Below the pieces are notes generated by a model. It ran no database searches. It worked only from the letters and a program-made list of their open reading frames with translations, and was not told where the DNA came from. A stretch of DNA of 53,253 nucleotides, taken from Candidatus Omnitrophota bacterium (GTDB lineage: Bacteria > Hinthialibacterota > Hinthialibacteria > Hinthialibacterales > JAKPRU01). How positions within the stretch are numbered: the stretch's first letter is position 1; every line of letters starts with the position of its first letter. The position numbers and the translations under genes were made by a program. Shown piece after piece: positions 12,361 to 43,556 of this stretch. The stretch lies in contig JAKQSI010000070.1 in NCBI GenBank assembly GCA_029570205.1, positions 1 through 53,253 on the forward strand, in the 5' to 3' direction.

Positions 12361-12439
12361 GGAATGAAGTCCGTTCGTTCTATGTCTTGTCGATTGCAGA
12401 TTCTCTCATCCTTTTCTCTTGCAGGAAGGAAGCGGGTAT

Positions 12440-12468
12440 TTGGATCTTCGACCGGTTTGAACTATAAT
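12440..12468 (+). promoter_or_regulatory. Sigma-70-type promoter for the antitoxin-like gene
   Basis: TTGGAT (12440-12445) and TATAAT (12463-12468) are separated by 17 bases, 45 bases ahead of the ATG at 12513. The perfect -10 and ideal spacing make this one of the clearer promoters in the window. Confidence 0.6.
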
Positions 12469-12512
12469 CCCAGCAGAGCCACGTCCGGGCAAGAACGGAG
12501 GGTCGTTCGGTC

Positions 12513-13227: not shown

Positions 13228-13239
13228 AAGGAGATCATT

Positions 13240-13530
13240 GTGAATCCTGTGCCTCCCATGCCCAGTCCGGAATATACGGCCGAAATACGGAAGGAAGGCG
13301 ACCAATTCATTGCCCACGCCGTTCCGCTGGATGTGATGAGTTCCGGCCTCACACCGGAGGAGGCAAAAGAAGCCCTGGATGAAGCTCTGCACCTGTTTCT
13401 TCGGACGGCGATGGAGATGGGAACATTGGACGAGATTCTCCAGGAAGCGGGATACGAATTCCGGGATGGAATTTGGGTGGAGCCTGCATTGGTTACGGTT
13501 GAGAGGCGCTCGACCGCTGTTGGCGCCTGA
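13240..13530 (+). CDS. hicB: HicB-family antitoxin
   Basis: The antitoxin of a HicAB type II toxin-antitoxin pair. The partial RNase-H-like HicB fold is visible: YTAEIRKEGDQFIAHAVPL, then the helix TPEEAKEALDEALHLFL and a C-terminal segment (EILQEAGYEFRDGIWVEP). At 96 aa it is within the normal range for versions without a separate DNA-binding domain. GTG is the start, fixed by AAAGGAG (13227-13233) seven bases ahead. It normally binds HicA and covers its catalytic histidine. The hicA reading frame starts two bases after this stop but is frameshifted, so the antitoxin may now have no active partner. Confidence 0.85.
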   Translation: MNPVPPMPSPEYTAEIRKEGDQFIAHAVPLDVMSSGLTPEEAKEALDEALHLFLRTAMEMGTLDEILQEAGYEFRDGIWVEPALVTVERRSTAVGA

Positions 13531-26096: not shown

Positions 26097-26526
26097 GAAT
26101 TAAACATTACAAATTAAGCAATAACAATCTCAAAAAAAAGATTTGCAGACAGGGAGAGCGGGGCGTATACCCCTTTGATTTCCCCCATGGATGCAGAGGG
26201 GGAGAAAAGCCGCGCGGCAATGGGGCCGTCGTGGATCCGGCGGACAAAGGGAGGGGGTAAACGCAGCGCACAGGTCGATATATGGTGGGATTCTTTCGGG
26301 CGACACCGCTACGTTGCGGGTGAATTGTCTGAACCGCGATTCGCTTGATTCAAGGAATATCTTGATTCTCCATCAAGGTTATCCCGTAATCCCGCGAACC
26401 GTCGTTTGGACCTCTTTCGGCAATATTTCCGGCCATACCCCCGATCCCATCAATTGACCTTCACACATGATCCGTTATGATTCAATATCTCGGAAGACTC
26501 ACATCCCGAAAGCACGGAGGATGACT
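26097..26526. other. Non-coding gap with a palindromic element
   Basis: About 430 bases between the M56 gene and the FG-GAP gene. The first part is A-rich, then holds a weak gggg-rich hairpin near 26175-26205. Nothing else apart from the palindrome at 26327-26411 is recognisable. A short frame across it (26191-26457) has no family or ribosome site support. Confidence 0.5.
26327..26411. repeat. Long palindromic intergenic element (GTCTGAACC ends)
   Basis: Left end gtctgaaccgcgattcgctt and right end cgcgaaccgtcgtttggac are inverted; the middle has the paired blocks gaatatcttgattctc and catcaaggttatccc. It is a second copy of the element at 4584-4675, differing in sequence but not in layout. 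Confidence 0.75.
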
Positions 26527-28527
26527 GTGAAGGCAGCGCACGACCCTTTCAACCCTGGAATTTCGATTGCCTGCAGCGTCGTAATGATCGTTACACTCCT
26601 GATCGGAGTTCTTCCGCCCTGTTCCACAGAAGCGGCAGAGGCCCCCGGAACACAGAAAGTCCGACTCGCCTACAACAATCCCGGCCTCGTAGTCGACCTG
26701 GGAGTGGGCCTGTGGGCAAATCCGTTTCCCATGGACTGGGACGGGGATGGCGACAATGATCTTCTGGCCGCCTCCGCAGACACACCCTACAACGGAGTTT
26801 ACTTCTTTGAGAATGACGGGTCCGGCGTGTTTCGGCCCGGCAAACGTCTTTCGGAAGCCAAACCCAACGCCACTATTTCCTATCCCAACGGCCAGCCGAC
26901 TTTCTGCACCCCCGGAAAAGTATATCCCGACTACCGGAATACGTTTTATGCAAATCCGGTAGAGATTCCATACAAGCAGGAGTTCTTCGCAGGCCGAGAT
27001 AACCAATGGAAATTCGCCGATTATGACGGCGACGGGATCATTGATTTACTGATCGGCGTCAGTGACTGGCGCGAGTATGGCTGGGACAACGCATTCGATT
27101 CCGAGGGCAATTGGACACATGGACCCCTGCACGGATATGTCTACTGGGTAAAGAATAACGGTTCCGATGAGAAGCCCGAGTACGGCTCGGCGGTACAGAT
27201 TCAGGCCGGTGGGAAACCGCTGGATGTCTACGGCTGCCCCTCTCCCAACCTGGTCGATTGGGATGGCGACGGCGATCTCGACCTGATCTGCGGAGAGTTT
27301 CTGGATCGTATCTCTTTCTTTGAGAACGTCGGATCGCGCACGAAACCCGAATACGCCGAAGGGAGATTTCTTGAAATCAACGGGGAGACCCTTCACCTCG
27401 AACTGGAAATGCTGCAGGTCGTCGTATTCGATTGGGATAAGGATGGGGACCCCGACATCATTGTCGGCAAAGAAGACGGCCGTGTCGTACTGATTGAGAA
27501 CACCGGCAGCATGGAGAATAACCTCCCCGTGCTTGCCCCGCCCCGCTATTTTCGGCAGCAGGCCCAGGACGTCAAGTGCGGCGCGCTGACAACACCGTGC
27601 AGCGTGGATTGGGACGGCGATGGAGATGAGGATATCCTTTGCGGGAATACGGCAGGATTTCTTGAATACATCGAGAATCTCGATAATGGAAATCCCCCCA
27701 AGTGGGCGGCGCCCCAACGTCTAACTGCGGACGGCCAGGTGATCCGGATTATGGCCGGGCCACATCTCTCCATCCAGGGACCCTGCGAAGCCAAATGGGG
27801 ATACACAGTCCCCTATGTAGCCGATTGGGATATGGACGGCCTTCCCGACATTGTAATGAATACCATTGTGGGCAAAATTGTCTGGTTCCACAACATCGGT
27901 ACGCGAACCGCACCCCGCCTGGCCGCCATGCCGCCGGTCGAAGTGGAGTGGAACGGAACACCGCCGAAGCCCGCCTGGAACTGGTGGAATCCCGCCCCGA
28001 AAGAATTGGTCGTTCAGTGGCGCTCACGGCCGATCGTATGGGATCTCCAGCACGATGGCCTGAACGACCTGATTTCCATCGACCACGAGGGCTATCTCTG
28101 TTTCTTTGAACGACAGCGTAAAGGAGACAAACTGATTCTTCTACCGGGCCGGAGGATGTTTTTGAACGAAGACCTTTCTCCTCTCCGCCTGACTGACGGC
28201 AAGGCCGGGGCCAGCGGACGGCGCAAGATCGACCTGGTCGATTGGGACAACGACGGCGACCTCGATCTGTTGATTAACAGCCCCAAGGAATCCCCCAAGG
28301 AGACCCGGAATATCGCGCTTTACGAAAATCTCGGTAAAGAAGATGCATTTGTGTTCCGCTACAACGGCGACATTACCTCCGTCCAGCTCCAGGGCCACGA
28401 CACGTGTCCGACAACGGTCGATTGGAATCGAGACGGGATTCGCGATTTGCTGGTCGGCGCCGAAGATGGATTCTTCTATTATTTTCCCAGAAAGTCCGCG
28501 CAGGAAATGCTCGGTAAAAGGCCGTGA
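26527..28527 (+). CDS. Secreted FG-GAP/VCBS-repeat beta-propeller protein
   Basis: A large exported protein, about 666 aa. An N-terminal hydrophobic segment (ISIACSVVMIVTLLIGVLPP) is followed by at least seven calcium-binding turns of the form D-x-D-x-D-G-x-x-D: DWDGDGDNDLL, DYDGDGIIDLL, DWDGDGDLDLI, DWDKDGDPDII, DWDGDGDEDIL, DWDMDGLPDIV, DWDNDGDLDLL and a last variant DWNRDGIRDLL. These are blades of an integrin-alpha-like propeller used for binding or display at the surface. GTG at 26527 is chosen because GGAGG at 26516-26520 is correctly spaced. ATG codons at 26521 and 26467 are in the same frame. Its ligand is unknown. It converges with the next gene. Confidence 0.85.
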   Translation: MKAAHDPFNPGISIACSVVMIVTLLIGVLPPCSTEAAEAPGTQKVRLAYNNPGLVVDLGVGLWANPFPMDWDGDGDNDLLAASADTPYNGVYFFENDGSGVFRPGKRLSEAKPNATISYPNGQPTFCTPGKVYPDYRNTFYANPVEIPYKQEFFAGRDNQWKFADYDGDGIIDLLIGVSDWREYGWDNAFDSEGNWTHGPLHGYVYWVKNNGSDEKPEYGSAVQIQAGGKPLDVYGCPSPNLVDWDGDGDLDLICGEFLDRISFFENVGSRTKPEYAEGRFLEINGETLHLELEMLQVVVFDWDKDGDPDIIVGKEDGRVVLIENTGSMENNLPVLAPPRYFRQQAQDVKCGALTTPCSVDWDGDGDEDILCGNTAGFLEYIENLDNGNPPKWAAPQRLTADGQVIRIMAGPHLSIQGPCEAKWGYTVPYVADWDMDGLPDIVMNTIVGKIVWFHNIGTRTAPRLAAMPPVEVEWNGTPPKPAWNWWNPAPKELVVQWRSRPIVWDLQHDGLNDLISIDHEGYLCFFERQRKGDKLILLPGRRMFLNEDLSPLRLTDGKAGASGRRKIDLVDWDNDGDLDLLINSPKESPKETRNIALYENLGKEDAFVFRYNGDITSVQLQGHDTCPTTVDWNRDGIRDLLVGAEDGFFYYFPRKSAQEMLGKRP

Positions 28528-28570: not shown

Positions 28571-29404
28571 CTAGACTTCGACACCCATGACGCCTTTCAG
28601 AGCGAATCCGAATACAATCGAGAGTACGAAGAAGAGAATCAGCCAATGGATATGCCATCCGAATACGGCTAATTCCAGCGGCCTGTATTTCACCCGAATC
28701 GATTCGACTGGGGAAGACGCAGGGATGGAAGGTTCCCCCGGATACAGCAGCATATCCAGGACGCTCGAACCGACTCGGATTTCCGAAACCCGTCCCCAAT
28801 CCATGCCGACACGAATTTCCTTTTCAACTACCTCATCCCCCACCCGCACTCGTAAAGGATATTTCCCGTCCCTTGCGCAAATAATTCGCCAGGATATCTC
28901 CCGCGCCGATTCCACACGCACACCTGGCGTTTCCACTCGAATTGCTTCCGGCGCCTCCATCACAGGATTCCGCTTTAATGCCGCCGGATCCCGCATAGTC
29001 GCCGTGACAATCGCCCGCTCGCCGACCCTCATCGGACGCACGGAGAAATGAAGATTTAATTGAATAATAATGAAGGTCACCGGGACAATCAGAATCAGCA
29101 TCGGAACCAACGAATACTGCATATAAGTCAACGTATCCCTCAGGATTCTTCCTTGAAGAGAAAAGACCACTCCCAAATCATATTGGAATAGCCGAACGGC
29201 AATCAGATTGCCGCGAATACGGTTTCTGATTTCCCTGACCCGGTCCTGATTCGAAACCTTACCGAATATCCACACCATAATCGCCCCTGTCAGTAAAGAA
29301 ATAAAGATTATGCCCCATATCGGATCAACCGAATAGAACGGCCAGAGGACCATTTCAAACACTGTTGTCAGAATCCCGTTCAATAAACCGATTGCAACGA
29401 CCAT
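28571..29404 (-). CDS. Multi-pass membrane protein, tentatively Oxa1/EMC3-like
   Basis: An unnamed 277-aa protein at the end of the phosphodiesterase cluster. Hydrophobic helices lie at about residues 4-22, 28-46, 97-117 and 252-272. Between the second and third is a basic, helical cytoplasmic stretch (KVSNQDRVREIRNRIRGNLI, ending DTLTYMQYSLVP). Between the third and last is a beta-rich outer domain of about 130 residues (GERAIVTATM, RIICARDGKYPLRVRVGDEV). One helix, a charged helical hairpin and further helices recall archaeal DUF106 and the EMC3/TMCO1/YidC insertase family. The similarity is by layout only and should be tested. It lies about 140 bases after the small RHH-like gene on the same strand. 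Confidence 0.65.
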   Translation of the reverse strand: MVVAIGLLNGILTTVFEMVLWPFYSVDPIWGIIFISLLTGAIMVWIFGKVSNQDRVREIRNRIRGNLIAVRLFQYDLGVVFSLQGRILRDTLTYMQYSLVPMLILIVPVTFIIIQLNLHFSVRPMRVGERAIVTATMRDPAALKRNPVMEAPEAIRVETPGVRVESAREISWRIICARDGKYPLRVRVGDEVVEKEIRVGMDWGRVSEIRVGSSVLDMLLYPGEPSIPASSPVESIRVKYRPLELAVFGWHIHWLILFFVLSIVFGFALKGVMGVEV

Positions 29405-29500
29405 TCCAGTCCGTCCATGATCATCTATTTGCTGTTGTCAATACCGATGGCTCCCTCGTCTCTTACCCACAGGCTCGAAGCCTGTGCCTCCCTTCTTTTT

Positions 29501-29530
29501 CCCGGATTCCGGCTTTCGCCGGAATGACGG
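29501..29530. repeat. Short palindrome (CCGGCTTTCGCCGG type)
   Basis: cccggattccggctttcgcc then ggaatgacgg, same family as at 19394 and 23324. A second perfect hairpin, cacaggctcgaagcctgtg (8-bp stem, 3-base loop), lies at about 29468-29486. Confidence 0.8.
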
Positions 29531-29543
29531 AAGCCGGCCCAAT

Positions 29544-29735
29544 TCATGAGATATATCCAAGCCCCTGGAGTTTCTTCCGGACATCCTCTTCGCTGTCGGC
29601 CTCCTCCAGCTGCGCCATTTCCCTCTCCAGCGCGTGAGTCACGAATTCGTCTACAGAAGAATACCCGGCCATCTCGCTGTATTGCTTTACTTTCCGGTAC
29701 AGATCGTTATCCAATTTCACCTTGTGTCCGAACAT
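29544..29735 (-). CDS. Small RHH-like protein with LGY tail
   Basis: A 63-aa protein: a beta strand (HKVKLDNDLYRKVKQYSE) then two helices (SSVDEFVTHALEREMAQLEE), the outline of a ribbon-helix-helix (CopG/Arc-type) fold. It continues into an acidic helix ending DVRKKLQGLGYIS. The same terminal pattern (charged helix, Leu-x-x-Leu-Gly-Tyr) closes the CysC protein and the small protein at 37977-38195. The ATG at 29735 follows GAGAGG; a GTG six codons upstream is also in frame. It lies just after the first phosphodiesterase gene. RHH proteins usually bind DNA, so it could regulate the cluster, but the tail suggests a protein partner too. Confidence 0.72.
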   Translation of the reverse strand: MFGHKVKLDNDLYRKVKQYSEMAGYSSVDEFVTHALEREMAQLEEADSEEDVRKKLQGLGYIS

Positions 29736-29759
29736 GTTTCTTTCCTCTCTCACGGCGAC

Positions 29760-31910
29760 TCAGCCGTTTTCCATCGTGACGTGGGTCGCTGCGTTTGTCG
29801 TCGGCTCCAGGCAGTTTTTCCCGATCATCTCCGGCAGCGGTTCAACTCCGAATTCGGCCAATACGGCGACGGTCAAATCATACAACGCCGGGGTCTCTAA
29901 TATAATCTTCCGATTCGTCAGCAGCACTCCCGGGATGACACGGTGATCCATGCAATGATCCCCGCTCCATGGGTCCTCGTTGACCGGAAACAATTCCAAC
30001 GGAAACTGGCCGAGCGGACTCTCCCAGGAACAGCGATAACCGCGGTTGTAGCCGATAATCAGATCCGGCCCCCACTCTGTGCAGGGACCATGGAAATCCC
30101 GATGCGTCCGGGTCACCAGGCTGATCGGGCGCTGCCCGTTCCGCGGGTCCTCCATCGCGAGCAGATCGGCCTCCAGCTCGTTCAACAGTTCCTCGTACTC
30201 GGCGCCGGGCAGCACAATTCCCTGCTTTTCCCTTCCCTTTACATTGAGGTACAAACCGTTAATTCCGAGGCCGTATGCTTTCGTTTCCGGCCAATCGATA
30301 TTCCCAAAATAGCGGTGCATGGCCTGCTCCGCCGGTCGAATCAATTTCAAGTAGCCCATCTCTACCAGCCATGAATTGAGATTGACTCCGTAGTAAAAAG
30401 GGCAGAATCCATGGTCCGACATGACAATCAGGGTTGTATTGTCGTCTATAGTGTTTTGTACCCTCCCCAGGGCTTCGTCCATTTCCAGGTAAATCCTCCG
30501 AATCCCGTCCGAGAGGAACTCATCGTGTACATGACAGGGATGCTCCGGGTCCATGTACCGCCACAGCATGTGCGAGCCCTGGTCCAGACTGGAAAAATAG
30601 AAGAATAACAATCCATCGTCAAATGTTTCCATGAAGTAATCCAGCGCCTTCCGCGTCTCCTGGAAAATCATTTCCGACTGATCCCAGAAATCGCGTCCGG
30701 TGAATACGCCCTCGCTGAACGCTTTTGTATCCGCCGGCAGCCCCTTTGTGTAAAAATACCCCAGTGATTCGAACAATTCCCGCGACCAATCCTCCGGCGT
30801 AGAAATCGGCAAGGCGGGATCTTCGGGGTTAATCTGTAGCGGTGTCATATACAATTCAAATGCGGGCCGGACTTTCTTCAGGTAAAAGCGCGCGATCGCG
30901 CTGATATTCACCAGGTACGGAACCGCCTCAAAATCCAGCCGAATCCAGTCGCTCCACTCGCCTTCCTGAAGGATGAACTCATCGTCCTGCATGACGAATT
31001 TCGCAACGGGTATCTCCGGGTCGATCAATATCTCGAAATCAATACTGCATTTCGGGGTCAGGTACTCCTGTTTTTTCTTTTTCGCGCTCCGACGCGAGGC
31101 GGCTTTCTTGATACGCTGAAAGGTATTGTCCGGGCCGTTAATCCGGGCCTTAATTCGATGATTCTGTATCTGTACCTTATGGACCTCGCCGCCGCCTCGG
31201 TCAATGTCGTCGGCGTTGGGCGGGATGATTTCCGTATAATACGAATACTTCCCCATCGTGCCGCGCATGTCCGGTGTGCCCAGGCCGGAGAGCGACCTCC
31301 CCGAGGATGGGACCGGCGGATAATTTGCCGGCATTTTGTAAATCGTTGTGGGAATGCCATGTTCTTCCAATATCTGCCAGAATGCTTTACCCCGGCGCAG
31401 CTGCTCAATCTTCCCTCCGGATAGCGGAATAACCCACTTTCCCACGGCGACAGTCTTCTCCGGACCTTCACTGCGCGACATGGAAGAATACACGCCGGCC
31501 TCTCCGGGAACCTGAAAAGCGCTCAGATCCCGATGAATAAAATCATAGATGCCGTGGCCGCCGGGATCCATGCCGGTAATAAATGTCGACCAGGCCACCG
31601 GACTTTGCGGCGGCTGAGTGGTTTGAAGCGGTTTGAAGTCTCCCTCGGAGATCAGGCGCTGGAAATTCGGCATAACGCCTTCATCTACATATTTCTTTAA
31701 CAAATTCGGGTCCATGCCGTCGATGCCCAGGATAATAACTTTTTTTCCACTCTTTCCCCGGGCGGAATAACGGCGATAATTTCCCGCCACGGCCTTTCCC
31801 TGGGCCGCCATGGGTGACCCCCCCGACAAGCCTACCGAGGCCCCACCGATGGCACAGGAAATCAGCCCAAGACATTCTCTTCTATCCACGGTATTTCTCC
31901 ATTTCTGCAT
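29760..31910 (-). CDS. AlkP-superfamily phosphodiesterase, probably exported
   Basis: A 716-aa protein of the alkaline phosphatase/nucleotide pyrophosphatase superfamily. Metal and nucleophile motifs are VIILGIDGMDPNLLKKYV (Asp64), SPVAWSTFITGMDPGGHGIY (Ser/Thr nucleophile at 108-109), LIVMSDHGF and WSGDHCMDHRVIPGVLL. The N-terminus (DRRECLGLISCAIGGASVG) has a twin arginine and a hydrophobic stretch, so Tat export is plausible. A beta insert at about 225-370 (EGEWSDWIRLDFEAV, PAFELYMTPLQINPEDP) is shared with the next gene. The ATG at 31910 or a GTG at 31889 behind GGAG could be the start. First of four paralogues here; the substrate, presumably a phosphodiester or pyrophosphate, is unknown. 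Confidence 0.88.
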   Translation of the reverse strand: MQKWRNTVDRRECLGLISCAIGGASVGLSGGSPMAAQGKAVAGNYRRYSARGKSGKKVIILGIDGMDPNLLKKYVDEGVMPNFQRLISEGDFKPLQTTQPPQSPVAWSTFITGMDPGGHGIYDFIHRDLSAFQVPGEAGVYSSMSRSEGPEKTVAVGKWVIPLSGGKIEQLRRGKAFWQILEEHGIPTTIYKMPANYPPVPSSGRSLSGLGTPDMRGTMGKYSYYTEIIPPNADDIDRGGGEVHKVQIQNHRIKARINGPDNTFQRIKKAASRRSAKKKKQEYLTPKCSIDFEILIDPEIPVAKFVMQDDEFILQEGEWSDWIRLDFEAVPYLVNISAIARFYLKKVRPAFELYMTPLQINPEDPALPISTPEDWSRELFESLGYFYTKGLPADTKAFSEGVFTGRDFWDQSEMIFQETRKALDYFMETFDDGLLFFYFSSLDQGSHMLWRYMDPEHPCHVHDEFLSDGIRRIYLEMDEALGRVQNTIDDNTTLIVMSDHGFCPFYYGVNLNSWLVEMGYLKLIRPAEQAMHRYFGNIDWPETKAYGLGINGLYLNVKGREKQGIVLPGAEYEELLNELEADLLAMEDPRNGQRPISLVTRTHRDFHGPCTEWGPDLIIGYNRGYRCSWESPLGQFPLELFPVNEDPWSGDHCMDHRVIPGVLLTNRKIILETPALYDLTVAVLAEFGVEPLPEMIGKNCLEPTTNAATHVTMENG

Positions 31911-31949
31911 GTCCGAGCAATCCCGAGCCTATTACGATAGCGGTTCTCC

Positions 31950-34058
31950 TCATGACGTTGTCTGCCCCCATTTCCTATTCTGCGGCAGCAGGGATTTCCC
32001 GTCGCAATAGGCGGGAATGGGCACACCGAACAGGTCCATAGCCGTCGCGCCGATGTCCATGATGCTCGGGTGCGGATTCTCGATCTTTCGGTTACAGAAA
32101 AAGATACCGGGGACATCGACCGGATTTACGCAGTGGTCACCGCTCCAGTTTTTCTCATTGTCCTCAATCTTATCGTTCGAAATGACACCCGTGGCGCAGC
32201 TCCAGGAGGTGCGATATCCGGGTTGGAACCCCACGATCAGATCCGGCGCCTCGTTCACATAAGGCCCCTGGTAGAGTTCGTTCGACAAATATACCTCGCG
32301 CACAGCCGGGCTATTTTCACTCTCGTCGCGCAATTGTTTCAGCTTCTCTGAAATCTCTTGTTTCAACTGCTCGGCGTCCGCTTTCTCCACGATCCCTCGC
32401 GATTCACGACCCCGCAGGTTCAGGTAGATCCCGCCCAAGCCCACGGCATACGCCTTCGTACGTTCCCAGTCCACATCCTGAAGCCATTCCGCGGCGGTCG
32501 GCTGAGATTTCAAGGAAAGGTAGCCATTCTGATAAAGCCACGTATTGAGATTGACACCGCGTTTGAATTCTTTAAATCCATGGTCGGACAGGATCATTAG
32601 AACCGTATCTTCGTCGATATTCAAAAGGATGCGACCCAGCAAGTCATCTATTCTTCGGTACAAGTCCTTAATGGTGTTGCGGTATTGTTCGATATCCTTC
32701 CCACGGTTAGCCGGATGGTCGGCATTCAAATATCGCCAGAACATGTGCTGGATTCGGTCGGTGGCATCGAACACACAGGCCACAACACCGCGACGGGTTT
32801 TCTCGAGCGCATCAAAAAACATCTTCTCGCGCTCCTCGTGAATCAGATAGACCTGCTTCAGAAAAGCGTCCTCATTGAGTACCCGTTCGTTGAGTCCCCA
32901 GGTGTCCTCTGCAAGGCCGAGGGTAGCATAAGACCCCAGAGTTTTCGCAAGGTAGATTGCGTAGGTAAAGGGATGAGAGATCGGGAGGGACGGTTTATCC
33001 GGATCGATATGGATGGGAGTCACATACAGTTTGAAGTGCGGAGACGTCTCGAGCAGGTAGAATCGGCAAATCCCGCGCGCTTTCATTCCCAATGCGGCTG
33101 GGAACTCTACAGAAATCCAGGGCGTATATTCATTTAGTTTCAACGGATATTTTTTCTTCGCCAGAATCATCTCCGCTGTTCCATTACCATTGAGCCGCAC
33201 CTCGAACGGGACACAAATCTCGCCGCCGTTTTTCTTGAGCGAATTCATCGGGCCGGAGAGATAACTTCGCACAACGCCATTCGATATCTCAACCGGAATC
33301 TGCATCCCACCGGTGTATCTACTGCATTCTTCGGGGGCGCTGCTGTAATAAGAGAATGTTCCCTGGCTTCCTTTCAGGTCCGGTACACACATCGCCGATA
33401 ACGACACGCCGTGAAATTTCTCAGGCGGAAAGGAAATCGGCACGCGCAGGATGGTACTGAACACACCATGGTCGCCGAGGACTTTCCAGAACGGCTGACT
33501 TTTTCGACGGAGCTGCATAAGCGGTTTTCCGATCGGGATTCTGTACTTTCCGATAGAAATCCCGCGTGTCGATGTGCCGATCTGGGCCGAGGAGAGCTGC
33601 GGCAAATACGATTTGCGGTTCGGTTCGAGAAAATCGAATATCCGGTGTTTGCCGGGATTACAGCATGTTTGAAAGGAAGACCAGGCGACCGGCGATACCG
33701 CCGGGAATGTGGTCCGCAGACGGCTGAACGTTCCCTGATCCCGCAATTTCGCATAATTGGGAAGGATACCCTCCTGCATCCACTGTTCGGTCAGGTCCGG
33801 GTCCTGGCCATCAAACCCGACAATGACTACTCGTTTGATCCGACTCCCGGCCAGCGCCTTTCGTCCGCGAAACAGGCGAAACATCCAGCGAATCGGCCAG
33901 GTAATTAACGTGAGAAATGCCAGGAAAAAAGTAATAAAGAGAATAAAAAAAGAAGAGACAAACGCGAATCCGGCTCCGGGGCCGATGTACGCGAAGGCCA
34001 TGCCGGGGAACAGTATCCCGGAAAGTAAGAAAACAGTTAAGAATGTTACAAATATCAT
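31950..34058 (-). CDS. AlkP-superfamily phosphodiesterase, membrane-anchored
   Basis: Closest paralogue of its downstream neighbour. The N-terminus has two membrane helices (MIFVTFLTVFLLSGILFPGM and FFILFITFFLAFLTLITWPI) separated by AYIGPGAG, then a basic stretch (RWMFRLFRGRKALAGSRIKR), so the enzyme domain should face the cytoplasm. Active-site motifs are VVIVGFDGQDPDL, SPVAWSSFQTCCNPGKHRIF, LMILSDHGFKEF and WSGDHCVNPVDVPGIFF. It contains the same beta insert as its neighbour (EYTPWISVEFPAALG, PHFKLYVTPIHIDPDKP). The frame is open 48 codons upstream, but that part is encoded by two intergenic repeats, so the ATG at 34058 is preferred. Length 702 aa. Stop-to-start gap to the next gene is 39 bases. 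Confidence 0.88.
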   Translation of the reverse strand: MIFVTFLTVFLLSGILFPGMAFAYIGPGAGFAFVSSFFILFITFFLAFLTLITWPIRWMFRLFRGRKALAGSRIKRVVIVGFDGQDPDLTEQWMQEGILPNYAKLRDQGTFSRLRTTFPAVSPVAWSSFQTCCNPGKHRIFDFLEPNRKSYLPQLSSAQIGTSTRGISIGKYRIPIGKPLMQLRRKSQPFWKVLGDHGVFSTILRVPISFPPEKFHGVSLSAMCVPDLKGSQGTFSYYSSAPEECSRYTGGMQIPVEISNGVVRSYLSGPMNSLKKNGGEICVPFEVRLNGNGTAEMILAKKKYPLKLNEYTPWISVEFPAALGMKARGICRFYLLETSPHFKLYVTPIHIDPDKPSLPISHPFTYAIYLAKTLGSYATLGLAEDTWGLNERVLNEDAFLKQVYLIHEEREKMFFDALEKTRRGVVACVFDATDRIQHMFWRYLNADHPANRGKDIEQYRNTIKDLYRRIDDLLGRILLNIDEDTVLMILSDHGFKEFKRGVNLNTWLYQNGYLSLKSQPTAAEWLQDVDWERTKAYAVGLGGIYLNLRGRESRGIVEKADAEQLKQEISEKLKQLRDESENSPAVREVYLSNELYQGPYVNEAPDLIVGFQPGYRTSWSCATGVISNDKIEDNEKNWSGDHCVNPVDVPGIFFCNRKIENPHPSIMDIGATAMDLFGVPIPAYCDGKSLLPQNRKWGQTTS

Positions 34059-34085
34059 CGATCCATCAATCTGTCCGGTGGCCAT

Positions 34086-34204
34086 CAGGGCAGGCACAGG
34101 GGCCTGCCCCCATAATGTCGTGGCCGGGTAGCTGGGGCAGCCCTGAACTAATCGCCCGCCCCCCTCGATGGAGAAGGCGGGAGCTGCGCTCCCGCACTCC
34201 AAGG
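34086..34204. repeat. Two hairpin elements at the junction of two phosphodiesterase genes
   Basis: gggcaggcacaggggcctgcccc (34088-34110) is a hairpin of the CAGGC...GCCTG family. gcgggagctgcgctcccgc (about 34177-34195, stem GCGGGAGC/GCTCCCGC) belongs to another common palindrome. They separate the end of the third AlkP gene from the start of the second. Confidence 0.7.
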
Positions 34205-34209
34205 GACTC

Positions 34210-35517
34210 CTACGACAGAAATCGCTCGAATCGGGTCGCGAGATCGGTAATCATCAGATCGCCATCAACCGATTCACCGGCCCAGAAGAACGCATCATCC
34301 CATGTGTGCATTCCCTGTAAGTCGGTTTCTGTGAATAGGTCATTCTTCACCAGATTTCCTTTTGTATCATAGCCGGAATAGGTCAAAACAATCAGGTCCG
34401 GTCCGTGGGGAACACACGGTCCCGAATAAATGTCTGCGCATCGAAACACTTCTCGAACGACCGGCTCGCCCTCATTCCGTAATGCAAGCAACTGACTCGA
34501 CATTTCCTCGGTCAGATTCCCGACCTCCGCTGTTTCCACACATCCATCCCGGAAGCGGTCTTTCCGGTTGAAATAAATCCGGCTGGGATCCAACGCAAAG
34601 GCCCTTGAGTCAGGCGAAAGGTTCTGCAATGTCGGTTCCGTCGCCTGTTCCAACCGTTGATATCCCTCCTGCCGAAGCCAAGCATTCAGGTTAAATTCGC
34701 GCTTGATTGCAGTAAACCCATGATCGGAAAGAAGAAACAGGCCGGTCAGGCCCTGCTCCCTGCCTGCCTTCTGCCGATATCGTTCCACAATCTCTGCAAT
34801 AAAACGGTCCACCGCCCGATAGTATTGCCGGACCACGGTGTGATACGGGTGAGTTGTGTCCGCAATCGCGTTCCATAAATAATGCTGAACGCGATCTGTT
34901 CCGGTAGTCACAACCTGGAAATAATCCCATTCCTCCCTGTCCCATAAAAGATCCACAAGGGAACGCTGTCCCTCAAGGGTCGAATGAAGAGATTGTATCA
35001 GATAATCATGGTCCTCCCGCGCGCGCTGGGTGTCGATATCGGTTTCATAGTTTAACCGTTTCAGATCGGGAAGAAGGCGCGCGGGAAACACCGCTTTGCG
35101 CAGGTCCAGAGCCACAAAGCCCGAAACAAGTACCCCCTGAATGGGTCGCGCGGGGTAAGTCGAAGGCTGGTTGATCACAACGGATTTTTTGGACTTCTGC
35201 CCCAGCCGATCCCACAGGGTCGGAACTTGCACATCCCGAAACGAGGGGAACCGCGTCTCTTTGGAGCCGGGCTTGAGGTCGATGAATCCGAATATCCCAT
35301 GTGTCCCCGGTCCGGCGCCGGTCATGAAACTGGTCCAACTGACTGCCGAGATTTCCGGCAGGGTGACTTTCATCGGTTGAAGATGCCCCTGGGCGCAGAG
35401 TTCCGCCATGGCGGGCATTGTGCCGTCTGCGGCCAACACCCGCAAAAGGCTGTATGGAACACCATCCAGCCCGATTACGCATATCCGCTTTTTCGGTTTT
35501 CTGAGAAATCCCAGCAT
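34210..35517 (-). CDS. AlkP-superfamily phosphodiesterase, soluble, short C-terminus
   Basis: A 435-aa paralogue without signal peptide or membrane helix, so presumably cytoplasmic. Motifs are ICVIGLDGVPYSLLRVLA, SAVSWTSFMTGAGPGTHGIF (nucleophile), GLFLLSDHGFTAIKREFNLN and MHTWDDAFFWAGESVDGDLM. It lacks the beta insert of the two larger paralogues. The C-terminus stops at ITDLATRFERFLS, whereas relatives continue through a further strand and a G-x-P-x-P-x-x-M-x-G-x-S segment. The stop lies only eight bases from an intergenic palindrome, which suggests the end was lost when that element arrived. The final metal-binding histidine region is atypical (DDAFFWAG), so activity may be altered. Confidence 0.85.
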   Translation of the reverse strand: MLGFLRKPKKRICVIGLDGVPYSLLRVLAADGTMPAMAELCAQGHLQPMKVTLPEISAVSWTSFMTGAGPGTHGIFGFIDLKPGSKETRFPSFRDVQVPTLWDRLGQKSKKSVVINQPSTYPARPIQGVLVSGFVALDLRKAVFPARLLPDLKRLNYETDIDTQRAREDHDYLIQSLHSTLEGQRSLVDLLWDREEWDYFQVVTTGTDRVQHYLWNAIADTTHPYHTVVRQYYRAVDRFIAEIVERYRQKAGREQGLTGLFLLSDHGFTAIKREFNLNAWLRQEGYQRLEQATEPTLQNLSPDSRAFALDPSRIYFNRKDRFRDGCVETAEVGNLTEEMSSQLLALRNEGEPVVREVFRCADIYSGPCVPHGPDLIVLTYSGYDTKGNLVKNDLFTETDLQGMHTWDDAFFWAGESVDGDLMITDLATRFERFLS

Positions 35518-35653
35518 CCGACCGCCCTCATTTTGGTGAAATTAACGACTGAACTTCGTAGAGTCTTGTCGGCTTTTGGCCCCCAGTCAAGAAGGACTCG
35601 GTTTTGGGGCGGTTGTGTGCTGTTCGGTCAAACCCCGCCCGACCTTTCGGAGT

Positions 35654-35698
35654 AATCAACCCCCACCTCACCTCCCCCGAGATTCGGGGTAGGGATCA
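35654..35698. repeat. CTCCCCCG-type palindrome, inverted copy
   Basis: tcaacccccacctcacctcc then cccgagattcggggtagg, the inverted counterpart of the element at 1976-2013, between cysC and the third AlkP gene. Confidence 0.7.
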
Positions 35699-35701
35699 TG
35701 T

Positions 35702-36310
35702 TCAGATATAGCCCAGAGCCTTGAGTCGCCTCTTGATTTCCTCTTCCTCTTCGGCAGAATATTCGGCCCCATTGCCGATTACCGGGATATAGCCCAGCAG
35801 CTCCAGCGTCCGGGTGATCTTCGCCACACATTGCTCAACCGTCTCTTTATCTGTCTCGACAATCACTTCCGGGTTCGAGGGTTCCTCGTATGGATCGGAG
35901 ACCCCTGTGAAATTCTTGATTTCACCAAGGCGGGCTTTCTTGTATAAGCCTTTCACATCGCGCTCCTCCAGGATATCGAGCGGGCATTTGCAGTACACCT
36001 CCACATACCGTCCGATCAGTTGACGATTCTTCTGACGGATTTCCTCATAAGGAGAAATGGCCGCCGCTATCGCCACCACATCATTTCGGGTCAGCAGGTT
36101 GCAGACAAAACCGATCCGAAGAATGTTGGTATCCCGATCCCCTTTTGAGAATCCGAGACCCTTGCTCAGGTTCGTGCGAACCACATCGCCATCAAGCAGT
36201 TCCACTTTCATTCCCCGCTCCAGCAGGACCCCTTCCATTTCCCTGGACAATGTTGTCTTGCCGGAACCGGACAAGCCGGTAAACCACAGCGTAAATCCTT
36301 GTGTCATCAT
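35702..36310 (-). CDS. cysC: Adenylylsulfate kinase with LGY tail
   Basis: Phosphorylates APS to PAPS with ATP (EC 2.7.1.25). The P-loop [16 protein letters not shown] starts the protein. [20 protein letters not shown], the lid region ([16 protein letters not shown]) and [12 protein letters not shown] identify CysC. The core normally ends near residue 180; here a tail of about 20 residues follows ([20 protein letters not shown] then Ile), matching the endings of two small proteins in the cluster. The ATG at 36310 overlaps the stop of the upstream AlkP gene as ATGA, with GAGGAG ahead, so the two are translationally coupled. No ATP sulfurylase or sulfotransferase gene is in the window, so this CysC appears specialised to the cluster. 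Confidence 0.95.
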
Positions 36311-37704
36311 TCCATCTCCTCGGATGTAAGTATCGAATGGCCGATCATTTCTTGCGCAGGAGGAATCCCGAACACGGTCAGGATCGTGGGCGCAATATCG
36401 TAGATCGAGTAAGTCTCCGCCTTGCGGACCGCACAGTCCCTTGGCGGCCTCATAATAAAAATCCCGTTCTGGGCATGGTTGGCATCATCGGGACCGGTGT
36501 CGTTTTCATACAGATAAATCGAGCCGACACCGACCGATCCTGCCGAGCGCCAGTTCAAATCACCGAAATAAACAATCAGGTCCGGCGGGATACCATTGCA
36601 TTCGCGATAAATCTCTTGCGGTTTGAAAACGCGTGTGCCGATATTCGTTCCGTTCTCATCGGCAATGGCCTCGAGTTTGGCTTTCACCTCGTCCCGGAAG
36701 GATTCGTACCGGTCTGCCGGAATTTGCCCTTCCGGTTCCCGTCCGGCGACATTGAAAAAAATGCGGGAGTAATAGCCGCCCTCTCCCCACACTTTTGTTT
36801 TGGACCAGTCGATCATCTCCATATCCAGGCGGGTCCGCTTTTCCGGTTGTTGTTTTAGAGTCAGGTAGCCCTCGCGCTGAAGAAACTCATTCACACAAAT
36901 CGCGCCGATCATGCCCTTCGCGCCATGGTCGGAGACTACCATCACCGAGGTATCATCATCGAGAGTTTCCAGCGTGCGGCCGACCTCCCGGTCCAGTTCG
37001 ACATAGTAATCATGGATCGCGTGTTCGTAGGGATTTCCGGGTTCGTAGAGACGATGGGTTTTATCGTGAAATCGCCAGAAACCGTGGTGGATACGGTCCG
37101 GCCCCATTTCGACCATCATGGCGAAATCGAAATGGTCGTGACAGATCAGGTGACGGAACACCTTGAACCGACGTTCGGTCATGACATAGATTGCTTTCAG
37201 CAGTTCATCCTTATTGTCGGTTCGAAAATCTTTGACATCAATGATGTAATCCCCATCGGCGATGCGGTCCAGTTCGGCTTTGATTTCATCCGGGCAGGTG
37301 TATTGGACCGACTTGTCCGGCGTGAGAAAACAGGCGACCAGCACGCCGTTCAGCGGTTTCGGCGGGTAAGTTTGAGGAACGCCGAGAACGAGCGACCGAA
37401 GGCGGTTACGTGACAAGTGATTCCAGACTGTTTTCGCTTTGACATAGCCGGCATTGGCGAAATACAGCTTATCGTAGGAATAGTCCTGACGGTTTCGGAA
37501 TCCGTAGAAGCCCAGCATACCGGGGTCCTGCGAGGTCATCATCGAGGTCCAGGCCGGAACAGTGATCGGGGGGATGGTGGATACCAGGGGGGCGTGAATT
37601 CCCTGTTCCATGAGGCTGCGGAGGTTTGGGAGGTCCGCTTTCCAGGCATCGAAAACGAGTTCCGGCGGCGCGCAATCAAGACCAAGGACAACGAGTTTCG
37701 GCAT
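36307..37704 (-). CDS. AlkP-superfamily phosphodiesterase, soluble, coupled to cysC
   Basis: A 465-aa paralogue with no export signal. Motifs are [18 protein letters not shown] (metal Asp), [20 protein letters not shown] (nucleophile), [38 protein letters not shown] and [20 protein letters not shown], a complete active-site set. The usual Gly in G-L-D-G is Cys. The ATG at 37704 begins exactly at the first strand ([10 protein letters not shown]). The frame is open a further 84 codons upstream, but that sequence is two intergenic palindromes and has no coding character. The end overlaps cysC (ATGA), which makes this the enzyme most closely tied to APS/PAPS chemistry. Actual substrate unknown. 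Confidence 0.9.
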
Positions 37705-37742
37705 GTTTCGGCATTGGAAGCGATCCGGGGGTCTGCGGATTT

Positions 37743-37773
37743 CCCTCACCCCAACCCTCTCCCGGAGAGGGAC
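37743..37773. repeat. CCCTCACCCC/CTCTCCC hairpin element
   Basis: ccctcaccccaaccctctcc followed by cggagaggg; stem CCCTCTCC/GGAGAGGG. Same family as 13763 and 40111. Confidence 0.7.
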
Positions 37774-37842
37774 AAGATTACTCTCCAGGCAGGAAATGAA
37801 GACCTGGTGTCGTGTAGCCGAATTGCCTTTGCAGGGCCGACC

Positions 37843-37946
37843 CGTCATCGCGAGGAGCCGCCCGGAGTCTGCGGAGAGCGGCGACGTGGCGATCTCAGGC
37901 TTGCGTGTTCGAACGGCGAGATTGCCACGCTTCGCTCGCAATGACG
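37843..37946. repeat. 104-base element with inverted ends (GTCATCGCGAGGAG type)
   Basis: Left end cgtcatcgcgaggagccgcc and right end cgcttcgctcgcaatgacg are inverted. Inside are a second inverted pair, gacgtggcgatctcag and gcgagattgccacgc. The nested layout is that of a non-autonomous miniature mobile element. It lies between an AlkP gene and the RHH-like gene. Confidence 0.75.
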
Positions 37947-37976
37947 ATATGGTCAAGACTATTCATTTACACAATA

Positions 37977-38195
37977 CTAGAGATACCCCAGGCTTTTTAG
38001 TCTCCGGCGGATCGCATCTATCTCCTTTTCGCTGAATGGGGTTTCCGACTGCCCGATTTCGCACGTGCCGACCAGATCCCGAAGGACATAGACGATGAAA
38101 TCCGTTGGGGAGTCAAATCCGGCGCCTTCAATAACTTTCCGGATTTTCTCATAGAGCGGACGGGGGATTTTGATGGTGACTTTGTCCACCGGCAT
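37977..38195 (-). CDS. Small RHH-like protein with LGY tail
   Basis: A 72-aa protein whose start (VDKVTIKIPRPLYEKIRKVI) and following helix (SPTDFIVYVLRDLVGTCE) fit a ribbon-helix-helix fold. The C-terminus SEKEIDAIRRRLKSLGYL ends in the Leu-x-x-Leu-Gly-Tyr pattern also seen on CysC and the small protein at 29544. The ATG at 38195 follows GGAG at nine bases; a TTG five codons upstream is in frame. It would be the first gene of the minus-strand phosphodiesterase cluster. RHH proteins at the head of an operon often autoregulate; no operator dyad is evident. Confidence 0.75.
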   Translation of the reverse strand: MPVDKVTIKIPRPLYEKIRKVIEGAGFDSPTDFIVYVLRDLVGTCEIGQSETPFSEKEIDAIRRRLKSLGYL

Positions 38196-40324: not shown

Positions 40325-41215
40325 TCAGGCCTGTTCGTGTTTGGCCTCGCCGGAGGGACTTGGTCGTCGTCCGCCTCCGCCCCCGCGTCCTTTGCGCTGA
40401 AATCGTTGTCGGTTGTTACCGGAACGCGGCCCCTGTCCGCCTCCGCCACGCCCACTCCCGCCGCTTCTGCCGCGTCCGCCTCCACCGCCCTGTCCGCTGC
40501 CGCCATTTCCCGCACCGCCTTCTCGTCGATCCCGTCCGCGCTGTGACTCACGCGGGGGGCGGGATTCGCGCGCCGGTCGCTCCCGTCGCTCGGCAATCCC
40601 TTCCCGGAGCGCGACAATCACACGGCGATAGCTTCCCTCCCCCACGCTGAACGTGGTGACCTTGGGATGATCGCGAAGCGCCATGTGAATGATGCGGCGT
40701 TCTGGAGCGCTGAGGGGATCGGTTCGCTGGTCGCGGCCTTCCGCGATGGCCTGGTTGGCCAATTGTTCCGAGAGGCTGTGCAGATTTTCCTCCCGCTTGT
40801 CGCGGTAATTGTTGACGTCGATAACGATTTTCTTCCATTTCTCCCGGTCGTTGTTAATGATCCGGGAGGCCAGATACTGCAAGGCGTCAAGAGTCTGGCC
40901 GTGTTGGCCGACCAGCACAGAGGCCTCATTGCCGAGCGAGACAAGGATTTCCCCGTCCTCCTCCTGGACATCAGGCGTGGCTTCCACGCCGAGATGTCGA
41001 AGGATATTCCGCATGAGAACACGTGTGCGGATTCGGTCGTCCTGACGAATCAGGACACGAACCCTGGCATTTCTTCGTCCGAAAAGGCCGAGAAATCCCC
41101 GCCTTCCGGTGTCCAGCGGTTCCACTTCGACCTCATCCCGTTCAGCGCCGAGAGAGCGCAGGCCGTTTTCGATGGCCTCTTCAATGGTTTTTCCTGTTCC
41201 GATTGTCTCTTCCAT
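40325..41215 (-). CDS. khpB: RNA-binding protein KhpB/Jag with Gly/Arg-rich tail
   Basis: An RNA-binding protein of 296 aa, last gene of the rpmH operon. The Jag_N domain covers residues 1-50 (ETIGTGKTIEEAIENGLRSL, RRGFLGLFGRR). The KH domain (about 80-155) has the loop VGQHGQTLDALQYLASRIIN. The R3H domain (about 160-215) has LSAPERRIIHMALRDHPKV (R-x3-H) and EGSYRRVIVALRE. Beyond residue 205 is a tail of about 90 residues dominated by Gly and Arg (GGAGNGGSGQGGGGGRGR, KGRGGGGGRRP), which typical members of about 200-210 aa lack. Its ATG overlaps the yidC stop (TAATG). Confidence 0.95.
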   Translation of the reverse strand: MEETIGTGKTIEEAIENGLRSLGAERDEVEVEPLDTGRRGFLGLFGRRNARVRVLIRQDDRIRTRVLMRNILRHLGVEATPDVQEEDGEILVSLGNEASVLVGQHGQTLDALQYLASRIINNDREKWKKIVIDVNNYRDKREENLHSLSEQLANQAIAEGRDQRTDPLSAPERRIIHMALRDHPKVTTFSVGEGSYRRVIVALREGIAERRERPARESRPPRESQRGRDRREGGAGNGGSGQGGGGGRGRSGGSGRGGGGQGPRSGNNRQRFQRKGRGGGGGRRPSPSGEAKHEQA

Positions 41216-43311
41216 TACCGTTGTTTCCTCCGAGACTGGCTTCGTCCGCCTGATGCGCGGACCCGTTCGAGCGCCGGGACCTCCGATACCCGCGTCGCCG
41301 TCTCCTTCTCTCCGAACTTATCTATAATAATTCGCTGACACGTATCCACGGTCATGCTGACGACGAAATAAAGAATCACGCCTGACGCGATCGACCAGAA
41401 CAAAAAAGTGAACACGACCGGAAGAATCTTCATCATGGCGGCATTCGGCGCTTCGATTTTCTGTCGCGCTTGACTCCACAACATGAGAACGCAATACATG
41501 ATCGGCAGGATATTGATTGGAATGATGTATCCGGCCAGAGGTAGAAAAAATGCCTGATCCGGCTGGGACAGGTCCTGAATCCACCAGACGAACGGCGCTC
41601 CCCGCAATTCGATGGCCTGATTGAACGTTCCCCACAAAGCAATGAAAATCGGGATGGTGGGGAGCATGGTCAGGCAGCCCGCCATGGGGTTGACTTTATG
41701 TTCGCGATAGAACTCCATGGTTTTGCGCTGAAGTTCCTGGGGATTATCTTTATATCGTTCTCGGAGCGCGGCGACCTGTGGTTGCAGCTGCTGCATTTTC
41801 TTCATGGAAGCCATTTGTTTGTGATACAGAGGATACATCAGCAGGCGCACCAGGAATGTCAGCAGGATGATCCCGACGCCGTAATTTGGGACGATCCGAT
41901 AAAAGATCTGAAGCAGGCGCAGAAGCAACTTGGCGATTGGGGAGACGATGGACGAAAGCCAGTAATTCTCAATCAGATCTTCCAGGGTTTCATCGACAGC
42001 GGTAAGGCGGGGACCTTCTTTCGGACCGACATACAGGTCGAAGACATCTTCGCGGATCTGTCCCGGATTCAAGTCTTGCAGTGTGATCTCTATTCCCATG
42101 GCGGGTCGGATGTAGTCCACGGAATCGCCCGGGATTCTCGACAGCCCGACCAGGGCGACTTCAACCGGCATGTGGGGGCGGATCGCGCCGAGGAAATACT
42201 TGGTGTCGATTCCGACCCACCGAACGCCGTTCTTCGGAACATGGTTCATCCATAGCGTCTCAAATCCATCGATCGGTATCGGGGTACTGCCTTTTTTTAT
42301 CGCTGTCTTGGCGATGGAAGCGTACTGGGCGGTTTTGCGGGGCATTTGTGGATAGCTTTCCATGTCGCCATCCGTGCCGGCCACGTGGGCGGAATTCAGG
42401 CGTTGTGGCTGAGTGGAAGGACGCGCAATTCCTCCCTGCCAAGTAAGGCCGTATTGATTTTCCTTGCCCCACTGGAGGGGAGCCTTCCCGATGTTCTCGA
42501 TGCGGATAGAGAAGTCCACACGATATTCGCCCGGTGTGAACCGGTAAATCTTGGAGACACGCAGATCGCCCTGCTCGACCGTATAGACCACATCCACGGG
42601 CTGATCGTCCACTCGGAGAACTCCCTGCGGACCTGAGTAAGTGACGGAGGTATCCCAAGTGTCGTAACCCCAGCGGCAAAGCATGGGAGAAGCGGGATAC
42701 ATCAAATTGCCGGGTACCAGTTCATCCGCGCAGAGCAGCCGGTTGTCCTCATTAAGGTCCGGATTCTTGCGGAGGAACGGTTCCATTTCGCGATATATTT
42801 CCAGTTCCTGCCGGTCCAGGTAAAGGTCGGCGAGCGGGAGAAAGGCCTCCAGGTAACGGTCATCATCGAGTCTTGCGGAAACCGCAGGTGGAGCCGGTTT
42901 GGAGGCGCGAAGAGCCAGGTAACGGGGATCCGAGAATACTTCCCGGTATTTCAGCAACCGCCAGGAGATGGGGACGGCTCCCTGATTGGTCAGGACGACG
43001 TGCCAGAGGTCGCCGGTCACGACACAGGTGGCCGGGGCGGTCTGTTGTGCGGTCTGTGTCAAAAGGCTCCAGGGACGGCTATCGACAGGCGGGGGTTGTG
43101 CGGCATTCTGTGTCGCCGATCGGACATCGGTTGGCGCTTCGGCAATGGTGGGTGTGGAAGTGGCTGAAAACGGAACAGGCTGCGTAGACTCGGCGACCGG
43201 TTGGGCCGCGCGTCGACGCTGGGTTTCCCGCAGTCGTTGGCTGTTGCGCCAACTGAATATGAAAATCAGAGCCATCGAGAGAACGATGGCCAACACCATT
43301 CGTTTTTCCAT
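41215..43311 (-). CDS. yidC: Membrane protein insertase YidC
   Basis: The inner-membrane insertase that helps Sec and also works alone. The Gram-negative form, 698 aa: N-terminal helix (MVLAIVLSMALIFIFSW), a long periplasmic beta domain (about 90-430; TYSGPQGVLRVDDQPVDVVY, RVDFSIRIENIGKAPLQWG), and the conserved five-helix core starting NYGVGIILLTFLVRLLMYPL. The cytoplasmic hairpin (KKMQQLQPQVAALRERYKDN) and the GCLTMLPTIPIFIALWGTFN helix are clear. The C-terminus is basic (ASGGRSQSRRKQR). The start at 43311 begins at the first helix; upstream codons overlap yidD. Order rnpA-yidD-yidC-khpB is the standard one. Confidence 0.97.
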   Translation of the reverse strand: MEKRMVLAIVLSMALIFIFSWRNSQRLRETQRRRAAQPVAESTQPVPFSATSTPTIAEAPTDVRSATQNAAQPPPVDSRPWSLLTQTAQQTAPATCVVTGDLWHVVLTNQGAVPISWRLLKYREVFSDPRYLALRASKPAPPAVSARLDDDRYLEAFLPLADLYLDRQELEIYREMEPFLRKNPDLNEDNRLLCADELVPGNLMYPASPMLCRWGYDTWDTSVTYSGPQGVLRVDDQPVDVVYTVEQGDLRVSKIYRFTPGEYRVDFSIRIENIGKAPLQWGKENQYGLTWQGGIARPSTQPQRLNSAHVAGTDGDMESYPQMPRKTAQYASIAKTAIKKGSTPIPIDGFETLWMNHVPKNGVRWVGIDTKYFLGAIRPHMPVEVALVGLSRIPGDSVDYIRPAMGIEITLQDLNPGQIREDVFDLYVGPKEGPRLTAVDETLEDLIENYWLSSIVSPIAKLLLRLLQIFYRIVPNYGVGIILLTFLVRLLMYPLYHKQMASMKKMQQLQPQVAALRERYKDNPQELQRKTMEFYREHKVNPMAGCLTMLPTIPIFIALWGTFNQAIELRGAPFVWWIQDLSQPDQAFFLPLAGYIIPINILPIMYCVLMLWSQARQKIEAPNAAMMKILPVVFTFLFWSIASGVILYFVVSMTVDTCQRIIIDKFGEKETATRVSEVPALERVRASGGRSQSRRKQR

Positions 43312-43340
43312 TCCGTCTTGTCTCACACCGTGCAGGCTTC

Positions 43341-43556
43341 CTATCGCTCGGGCGGCAGATCGATGCCTCCGGGATGCCACGGATGGCATCGCAGAATCCG
43401 AACGAATGCAAGACGGAGACCGCGCCCGAGACCGAATCGTTCGATAACCTCGTGCGCATACACGGAACAGGTCGGATGGAAGCGGCAGAGGGGAGGCAGA
43501 CAGGGAGACACAACCTGTTTGTACACCCGCAGGCACATCAAAACGATTGTTCGCAT
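43341..43556 (-). CDS. yidD: Membrane protein insertion efficiency factor YidD
   Basis: A small membrane-associated protein that assists YidC. The whole family signature is present: LRVYKQVVSPCLPPLCRFHP then TCSVYAHEVIERFGLGRG and RILRCHPWHPGGID, with the three conserved cysteines. The ATG at 43556 gives 71 aa and the usual start (MRTIVLMCLRVYKQ). An in-frame GTG at 43577 overlaps the rnpA stop as GTGA and could also be used by coupling. It lies 29 bases before yidC. Confidence 0.95.
   Translation of the reverse strand: MRTIVLMCLRVYKQVVSPCLPPLCRFHPTCSVYAHEVIERFGLGRGLRLAFVRILRCHPWHPGGIDLPPER

Follow-up and report, generated by a model that had tools for sequence, protein, structure and literature searches.

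In this study, we show how eight genes on the minus strand of a bacterial contig form a cluster that is conserved in many bacterial phyla, and that joins four PF01663 AlkP enzymes to an APS kinase, two small ribbon-helix-helix (RHH)-like proteins and an insertase-like membrane protein. As a working name for this eight-gene system we use PAPS-AlkP cluster. Our model as a whole, in which PAPS made by Sat and CysC would be consumed by NPP-type AlkPs that are assembled through a shared C-terminal tail and modify a surface glycan or lipid, is tentative, and we would give it a probability of about 0.4.

A conserved cluster of two modules

All eight genes lie inside positions 28571-38195 of the window, by which we mean the whole stretch of 53,253 nucleotides of Candidatus Omnitrophota DNA that was analysed. 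The sequence-only reading of this DNA had listed eight same-strand genes of these types, and all of them were found. Comparison with orthologues led to revised start positions for ALP1 (37704), ALP3 (about 34058) and RHH1 (38195), which are included below.

RHH1, 37977..38195, minus strand: small ribbon-helix-helix-like protein; begins KVTIKIPRPLYEKI, and its C-terminal LGY tail ends EIDAIRRRLKSLGYL
ALP1, 36307..37704, minus strand: cytosolic NPP-type AlkP enzyme
CysC, 35702..36310, minus strand: APS kinase with intact P-loop and an additional C-terminal LGY tail (20 aa, about 35705-35764)
ALP2, 34210..35517, minus strand: AlkP enzyme with Ser at the nucleophile position and a polybasic N-terminus
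ALP3, 31950..34058, minus strand: AlkP enzyme with a signal/AYIGPGAG/TM segment followed by an Arg/Lys-rich stretch; the listed ORF starts at 34202
ALP4, 29760..31910, minus strand: predicted exported AlkP enzyme with a Tat-like signal; paralogue of ALP3
RHH2, 29544..29735, minus strand: small ribbon-helix-helix-like protein with LGY tail SEEDVRKKLQGLGYIS
INS, 28571..29404, minus strand: 3-TM Oxa1-superfamily protein of the DUF106/EMC3 kind; TM2 and TM3 are separated by an extracytoplasmic Ig-like domain

In Pfam, the four AlkP genes match PF01663 with E-values from 1e-31 to 4e-43 and CysC matches PF01583 (E 4e-60), the latter also exceeding the NCBIfam cut-off for adenylyl-sulfate kinase; a weak Pfam match was found in only one of the two small RHH-like ORFs. 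The ATGA overlap that had been read as coupling an AlkP gene to cysC is real, and joins ALP1 to cysC.

The cluster consists of a cytosolic module, RHH1-(sat)-ALP1-cysC-ALP2, and a membrane module, ALP3-ALP4-RHH2-INS, which in some annotated loci are located on opposite strands. A search for INS found it in 10 of 61 genomes, and in the regions around these matches the order RHH1-(sat)-ALP1-cysC-ALP2-ALP3-ALP4-RHH2-INS is repeated in unrelated families. Scanning GTDB genomes with ALP1 gave at least 515 relatives, and the best 80 of these, which were taken for annotation, belong to the Eisenbacteria, Poribacteria, Armatimonadota, Acidobacteriota, Chloroflexota, Verrucomicrobia, Latescibacterota, Methylomirabilota and others. 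Within the ALP1- and INS-bearing loci, RHH2 directly precedes INS in 18/18 cases, ALP4 precedes RHH2 in 16/20, ALP3 precedes ALP4 in 14/20 and Sat precedes ALP1 in 24/27, while ALP1 and cysC are adjacent in 43 cases; since the loci were picked via ALP1 or INS, these rates apply to homologues of those two genes. The median intergenic gaps of adjacent cluster pairs are about 10-25 bp. ALP1 (E<1e-100) was found in 17 of 145 genomes and INS (E<1e-10) likewise in 17, with both present in 10, where 2 would be expected, in a set whose genomes are non-independent, though most are in different families. The linkage of the cluster genes is far beyond chance. The earlier reading had proposed to look in relatives for conserved linkage between cysC, at least two AlkP genes and the RHH genes, and this linkage is indeed conserved across phyla; neither of the two observations that it had named as speaking against a system, scattered AlkP genes and a CysC in a normal cysDNC setting, was made.

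A diverged membrane module (ALP4, INS, RHH2, ALP3) was observed in L021 at 7029-13410, with no ALP1 within that stretch. An anti-phage defence system was also considered and rejected: PADLOC models gave only weak P-loop-type matches to CysC, none of them meaningful, and no ALP1 homologue was confirmed in viral contigs.

Sat, CysC and activated sulfate

In the clusters of relatives, a canonical ATP sulfurylase (Sat; NF003166, E 4e-167) stands directly before ALP1. The claim that cysC lacks sulfate-assimilation partners is correct locally, the single Sat of the window genome being located on a different contig, but it does not extend to relatives, where sat lies between RHH1 and ALP1. Sat and ALP1 even form a single polypeptide in seven Chloroflexota loci, of 860-869 aa in six of them and cut by the contig end in the seventh. 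In Verrucomicrobia a bifunctional Sat-CysC protein stands upstream of ALP1, and in L063 a sodium/sulfate symporter is located between RHH1 and Sat. The QxRNPxHxxH active-site motif is intact in 31 of the 34 Sat ORFs examined, as is the P-loop in 40 of 46 linked CysCs; judged by motif, both proteins are canonical and for the most part intact. Five linked CysCs have lost the P-loop and a sixth is without much of the kinase core, and all six keep the LGY tail:

L045 6968-7516: CysC-like, P-loop lost, LGY tail kept
L046 11621-12163: CysC-like, P-loop lost, LGY tail kept
L062 11575-11865: CysC-like, P-loop lost, LGY tail kept
L080 11410-11910: CysC-like, P-loop lost, LGY tail kept
L101 5056-5550: CysC-like, P-loop lost, LGY tail kept
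L049 11463-11990: CysC-like, much of the kinase core lost, LGY tail kept

L045 carries a separate Sat-CysC bifunctional protein in addition to its degenerate CysC, and in four loci (L046, L049, L080 and L101) the degenerate CysC has no nearby Sat. In the CysC tree, the linked CysCs, including that of the window, fall outside a strongly supported clade (100/99) of 22 ordinary CysCs, and do not form one clade themselves. In Poribacteria (L060, L064, L052 and L058), ALP1 is found without a nearby cysC, beside a sulfatase and a PhyH-type dioxygenase, and their own CysC is untailed and located elsewhere. Because of these poribacterial loci, and of the four with a degenerate CysC and no Sat, it can be deduced that ALP1 can exist without local PAPS synthesis.

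A shared C-terminal tail

RHH1, RHH2 and CysC share a C-terminal end in which an acidic helix-like segment is followed by LxxLGY(I/L). This tail terminates 125 of the 9491 closed ORFs in the loci, versus 3.65 expected by shuffling. It was counted in 20/20 RHH1 and 18/18 RHH2 proteins, figures that are partly circular as the RHH profiles contain the tail, and in 45/49 CysCs and 4/85 ALP1s, for which this circularity does not apply. All four tailed ALP1s are in loci without CysC, and the same count gave no tail on ALP2, ALP3, ALP4, Sat or INS. Unlinked ordinary CysCs are without the extra tail extension; those that fit the pattern (4 of 28) do so solely through their native last helix, like KLRELGYIEW. 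A natural fusion of CysC, an RHH-like domain and the LGY tail is encoded in a Methylomirabilis genome (L081, 8057-8809), and RHH1 leads the cytosolic module in 20 loci. When three genomes were scanned for LxxLGY[ILVM] before a stop, the true ORF ends were those of cluster members, of AlkP-superfamily proteins outside the cluster and of one KdtA-like protein; the AlkP-superfamily proteins outside the cluster are two sulfatases and one PF01663-like enzyme, and the names of all these outside proteins come from our reading of their sequences. A PDB search with a tailed sulfatase aligned its catalytic part, with the tail outside the alignment. The simplest reading is that the LGY tail is a putative docking peptide for AlkP-superfamily enzymes, provided either in cis or in trans.

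Sulfatases or PF01663-type enzymes with an LGY tail were also seen outside the cluster in L187, L188, L199, L071, L073, L084, L093, L100 and L102, and in Verrucomicrobia a tailed AlkP-superfamily enzyme is located closely downstream of ALP1 inside polysaccharide clusters. In Armatimonadota, ALP2 is followed by a small membrane protein of 98 aa with an LGY tail, which by sequence reading is DUF2061-like:

L028 4587-4883: 98-aa tailed membrane protein
L029 12409-12705: 98-aa tailed membrane protein
L031 13546-13842: 98-aa tailed membrane protein
L036 13435-13731: 98-aa tailed membrane protein

The four AlkP enzymes

ALP1 is the most conserved member of the cluster, with about 70% identity in other phyla. 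Its predicted structure is confident (pLDDT 91), and the solved structures that match it best are NPPs (ENPP1, E 3.7e-16, and Xac NPP) and phosphonoacetate hydrolase. The seven metal and nucleophile positions, D10, T48, D203, H207, D259, H260 and H410, were assigned through motif comparison with NPPs and are invariant in 30 homologues. From the model and these residues, ALP1 is assigned as an NPP-fold AlkP with Asp/His metal ligands and a Thr nucleophile. At the sequence level, ALP1 has no match to PDB entries at E<0.01, and searches of Pfam, NCBIfam and PDB sequences assigned no specific AlkP subfamily to these enzymes. Export signals are found on ALP4, Tat-like in the window and Sec or lipoprotein in relatives, and are absent from ALP1 and ALP2. 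In ALP3, basic residues come after a membrane segment at the N-terminus, and since by the positive-inside rule these would remain inside, its catalytic domain is predicted to be cytosolic. ALP2 is probably peripheral on the inner membrane face, the topologies of ALP2, ALP3 and ALP4 having been read by eye. In Verrucomicrobia and some other phyla, the ALP1 loci sit among glycosyltransferases, Wzx-like flippases and export genes.

The membrane protein INS

The 277-aa INS alone has no significant Pfam match, and EMC3_TMCO1 was matched by 4 of 16 INS members, at best with 2e-5. A profile of INS, however, matches MJ0480 (PDB 5c8j; E 3e-8) over TM1, the hairpin and TM2, with TM3 weak but colinear. 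The INS model (pLDDT 91) has three TM-length helices plus an Ig-like domain, and as the latter dominated the structure search, which returned only Ig-like/filamin domains, the insertase identity is based on sequence profiles. By profile, and with a three-TM core, a cytosolic hairpin and a relation to MJ0480, INS belongs to the archaeal DUF106/EMC3 branch of Oxa1 insertases; the sequence-only reading had recognised an insertase-like protein, in line with this Oxa1-superfamily match, without placing it in that branch. DUF106 has been described as an archaeal family (PMC8887752). The window also carries a normal YidC followed by Jag on the same strand (40325-43536), and thus two kinds of Oxa1-superfamily protein are found within about 15 kb in this genome.

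What uses the PAPS?

So what exactly consumes the PAPS that Sat and CysC would make? No sulfotransferase is present among the eight window genes, nor does one occur as a recurrent neighbour family in the loci. The cytosolic module is present on G146, an Armatimonadota chromosome that encodes Sat and CysC, and neither a Sulfotransfer_1, _2 or _3 match nor a PAPS reductase was found in it. G053 likewise has none of these three sulfotransferase families and no PAPS reductase, and G055 has none of the three sulfotransferase families. PF01507 matches in G146, where the match is weak, and in G000 were rejected as PAPS reductases, as they are TilS-like and GMP-synthase-like ORFs. The window genome has one Sulfotransfer_3 protein and no real PAPS reductase, and a real PAPS reductase is present in G037 and G055, so that PAPS may have ordinary uses in these genomes. 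Nonetheless, because genomes like G146 have no sulfotransferase of the families searched and no reductase, and because ALP1 loci lie in polysaccharide clusters, we infer that the AlkPs are the leading candidates for the use of PAPS in making a surface product.

In our model, APS/PAPS synthesis by Sat and CysC would take place in a complex that includes ALP1, and its consumers would be the NPP-type AlkPs rather than a classical sulfotransferase; the group that they transfer would be sulfuryl, phosphoryl or 3'-phosphoadenylyl. Docking would depend on the LGY tail, which tailed AlkPs carry themselves in cis and which the RHH proteins and CysC would provide in trans to the tailless ALP1-ALP4. ALP2 and ALP3 would act at the inner face and ALP4 outside, while the EMC3-like INS may insert or organise the membrane part, and the end product would likely be a modified surface glycan or lipid. 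To our knowledge, there is no precedent for PAPS-dependent transfer by an AlkP fold. We consider doubtful the bolder claim that NPP-fold AlkPs have taken the place of classical sulfotransferases in many uncultured bacterial phyla as a novel class of transferases dependent on PAPS (or APS), brought together by an LGY tail acting in cis or in trans and served by a bacterial EMC3-like insertase. The sequence-only reading had proposed a pathway around PAPS with enzymes on both sides of the membrane. The conserved linkage, the Sat-ALP1 fusions and the export signals of ALP4 support this proposal in part, the sulfated or phosphorylated compound that it invoked being a putative product. It had overlooked that Sat is a core member, that several of the proteins have a C-terminal tail in common and that the membrane protein is of the DUF106/EMC3 type.

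We must however take into account that NPP-fold enzymes hydrolyse nucleotide anhydrides. ALP1, and perhaps ALP2, could accordingly be clean-up hydrolases for APS, PAP or pyrophosphate, which draw PAPS synthesis forward or keep toxic PAP low, with the transfer itself left to an unrecognised sulfotransferase located elsewhere. This stays a fair rival, even if we hold it to be unlikely: the Sat-ALP1 fusion fits removal of the Sat product and the window genome does have its one Sulfotransfer_3, but four distinct AlkPs, one predicted to be exported and one membrane-anchored, exceed the needs of clean-up, and no sulfotransferase of the three families was found in G055, G053 or G146. AlkP-fold transferases of surface phosphate groups are also known, and it is conceivable, though we find it quite unlikely, that the substrates of the AlkPs are surface polymers or lipids bearing phosphodiesters or phosphate, with no use of PAPS, and that CysC and Sat serve as sulfate- or nucleotide-sensing subunits with a regulatory or scaffold role. 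Degenerate CysCs that retain the tail and poribacterial ALP1s apart from cysC would be expected from such an arrangement; the intact P-loop of most linked CysCs and the motif kept in most Sats would not, nor would the sulfate symporter of L063 or the Sat-CysC protein that accompanies the degenerate CysC of L045, as if the activity were still needed.

That RHH1 and RHH2 are DNA-binding regulators of a sulfate or phosphate regulon, whose genes are co-regulated without forming one pathway, appears highly improbable. Their RHH-like sequence and the position of RHH1 at the head of the cytosolic module would suit such a role, yet protein fusions imply more than co-regulation, and the sharing of the tail with CysC and AlkPs, together with the CysC-RHH-tail fusion, suggests a structural role for the RHH proteins instead. 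In the Campylobacter phosphoramidate pathway, a CysC-like kinase is reported to act on another nucleotide. A comparable activity here, with no involvement of PAPS, would account for the window cysC having no adjoining Sat, and is the least probable of these explanations, given that Sat stands before ALP1 in nearly all Sat-bearing cases or is fused to it, and that CysC scores above the adenylyl-sulfate kinase cut-off.

If our model holds, nature would have another enzymatic route to sulfation besides the sulfotransferase fold, one that is widespread in phyla known mostly from metagenomes alone, and the presence of a short peptide tag would predict which proteins cooperate with AlkP-superfamily enzymes. 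Whatever the chemistry, the cluster provides a testable context for hundreds of PF01663 proteins, as well as a bacterial member for the EMC3/DUF106 branch of insertases, in the papers that we consulted an archaeal and eukaryotic group.

Comparison with known systems

The absence of a named system of this composition, as stated by the sequence-only reading, extends to the families, defence models and open-access papers that we searched, the last of which held nothing relevant on the gene combination, the tail or the Sat-AlkP fusion. While the parts belong to known families, the combination, the Sat-AlkP fusion, the exchange of the tail and the bacterial DUF106-like partner are new to us. Sulfated-capsule clusters pair PAPS synthesis with sulfotransferases, for example through cysNDC in Vibrio sp. 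KMM 8419 (PMC11641403). Like these, the PAPS-AlkP cluster contains genes for PAPS synthesis (cysC in the window, sat and cysC in relatives), and some ALP1 loci lie in surface-polysaccharide clusters. Unlike these, its core has AlkPs, tailed RHH proteins and an insertase-like protein in place of a sulfotransferase, and its Sat is of the monomeric type instead of CysDN. In Chloroflexus aurantiacus, a bifunctional Sat/CysC adjoins a sulfotransferase (Caur_2113-2114, PMC3150298); the Chloroflexota loci described here similarly present a second PAPS synthesis gene besides the assimilatory one, but with Sat fused to an AlkP enzyme and not to CysC. ALP1 resembles ENPP1 and Xac NPP in its fold and catalytic residues, and differs from them in being cytosolic, linked or fused to Sat and CysC, and distant in sequence. 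INS likewise has the core of three TM segments and a cytosolic hairpin of MJ0480, EMC3 and TMCO1, whereas it is bacterial, carries an Ig-like domain between TM2 and TM3, and shares an operon with AlkPs.

Elsewhere in the window, an O-antigen ligase-type (Wzy_C) protein is encoded at 5680-7236 and a protein with collagen-like repeats at 9228-11105. An FG-GAP repeat protein (26467-28527) is convergent with INS, and its location is conserved in the two other genomes of the genus (L013 and L014).
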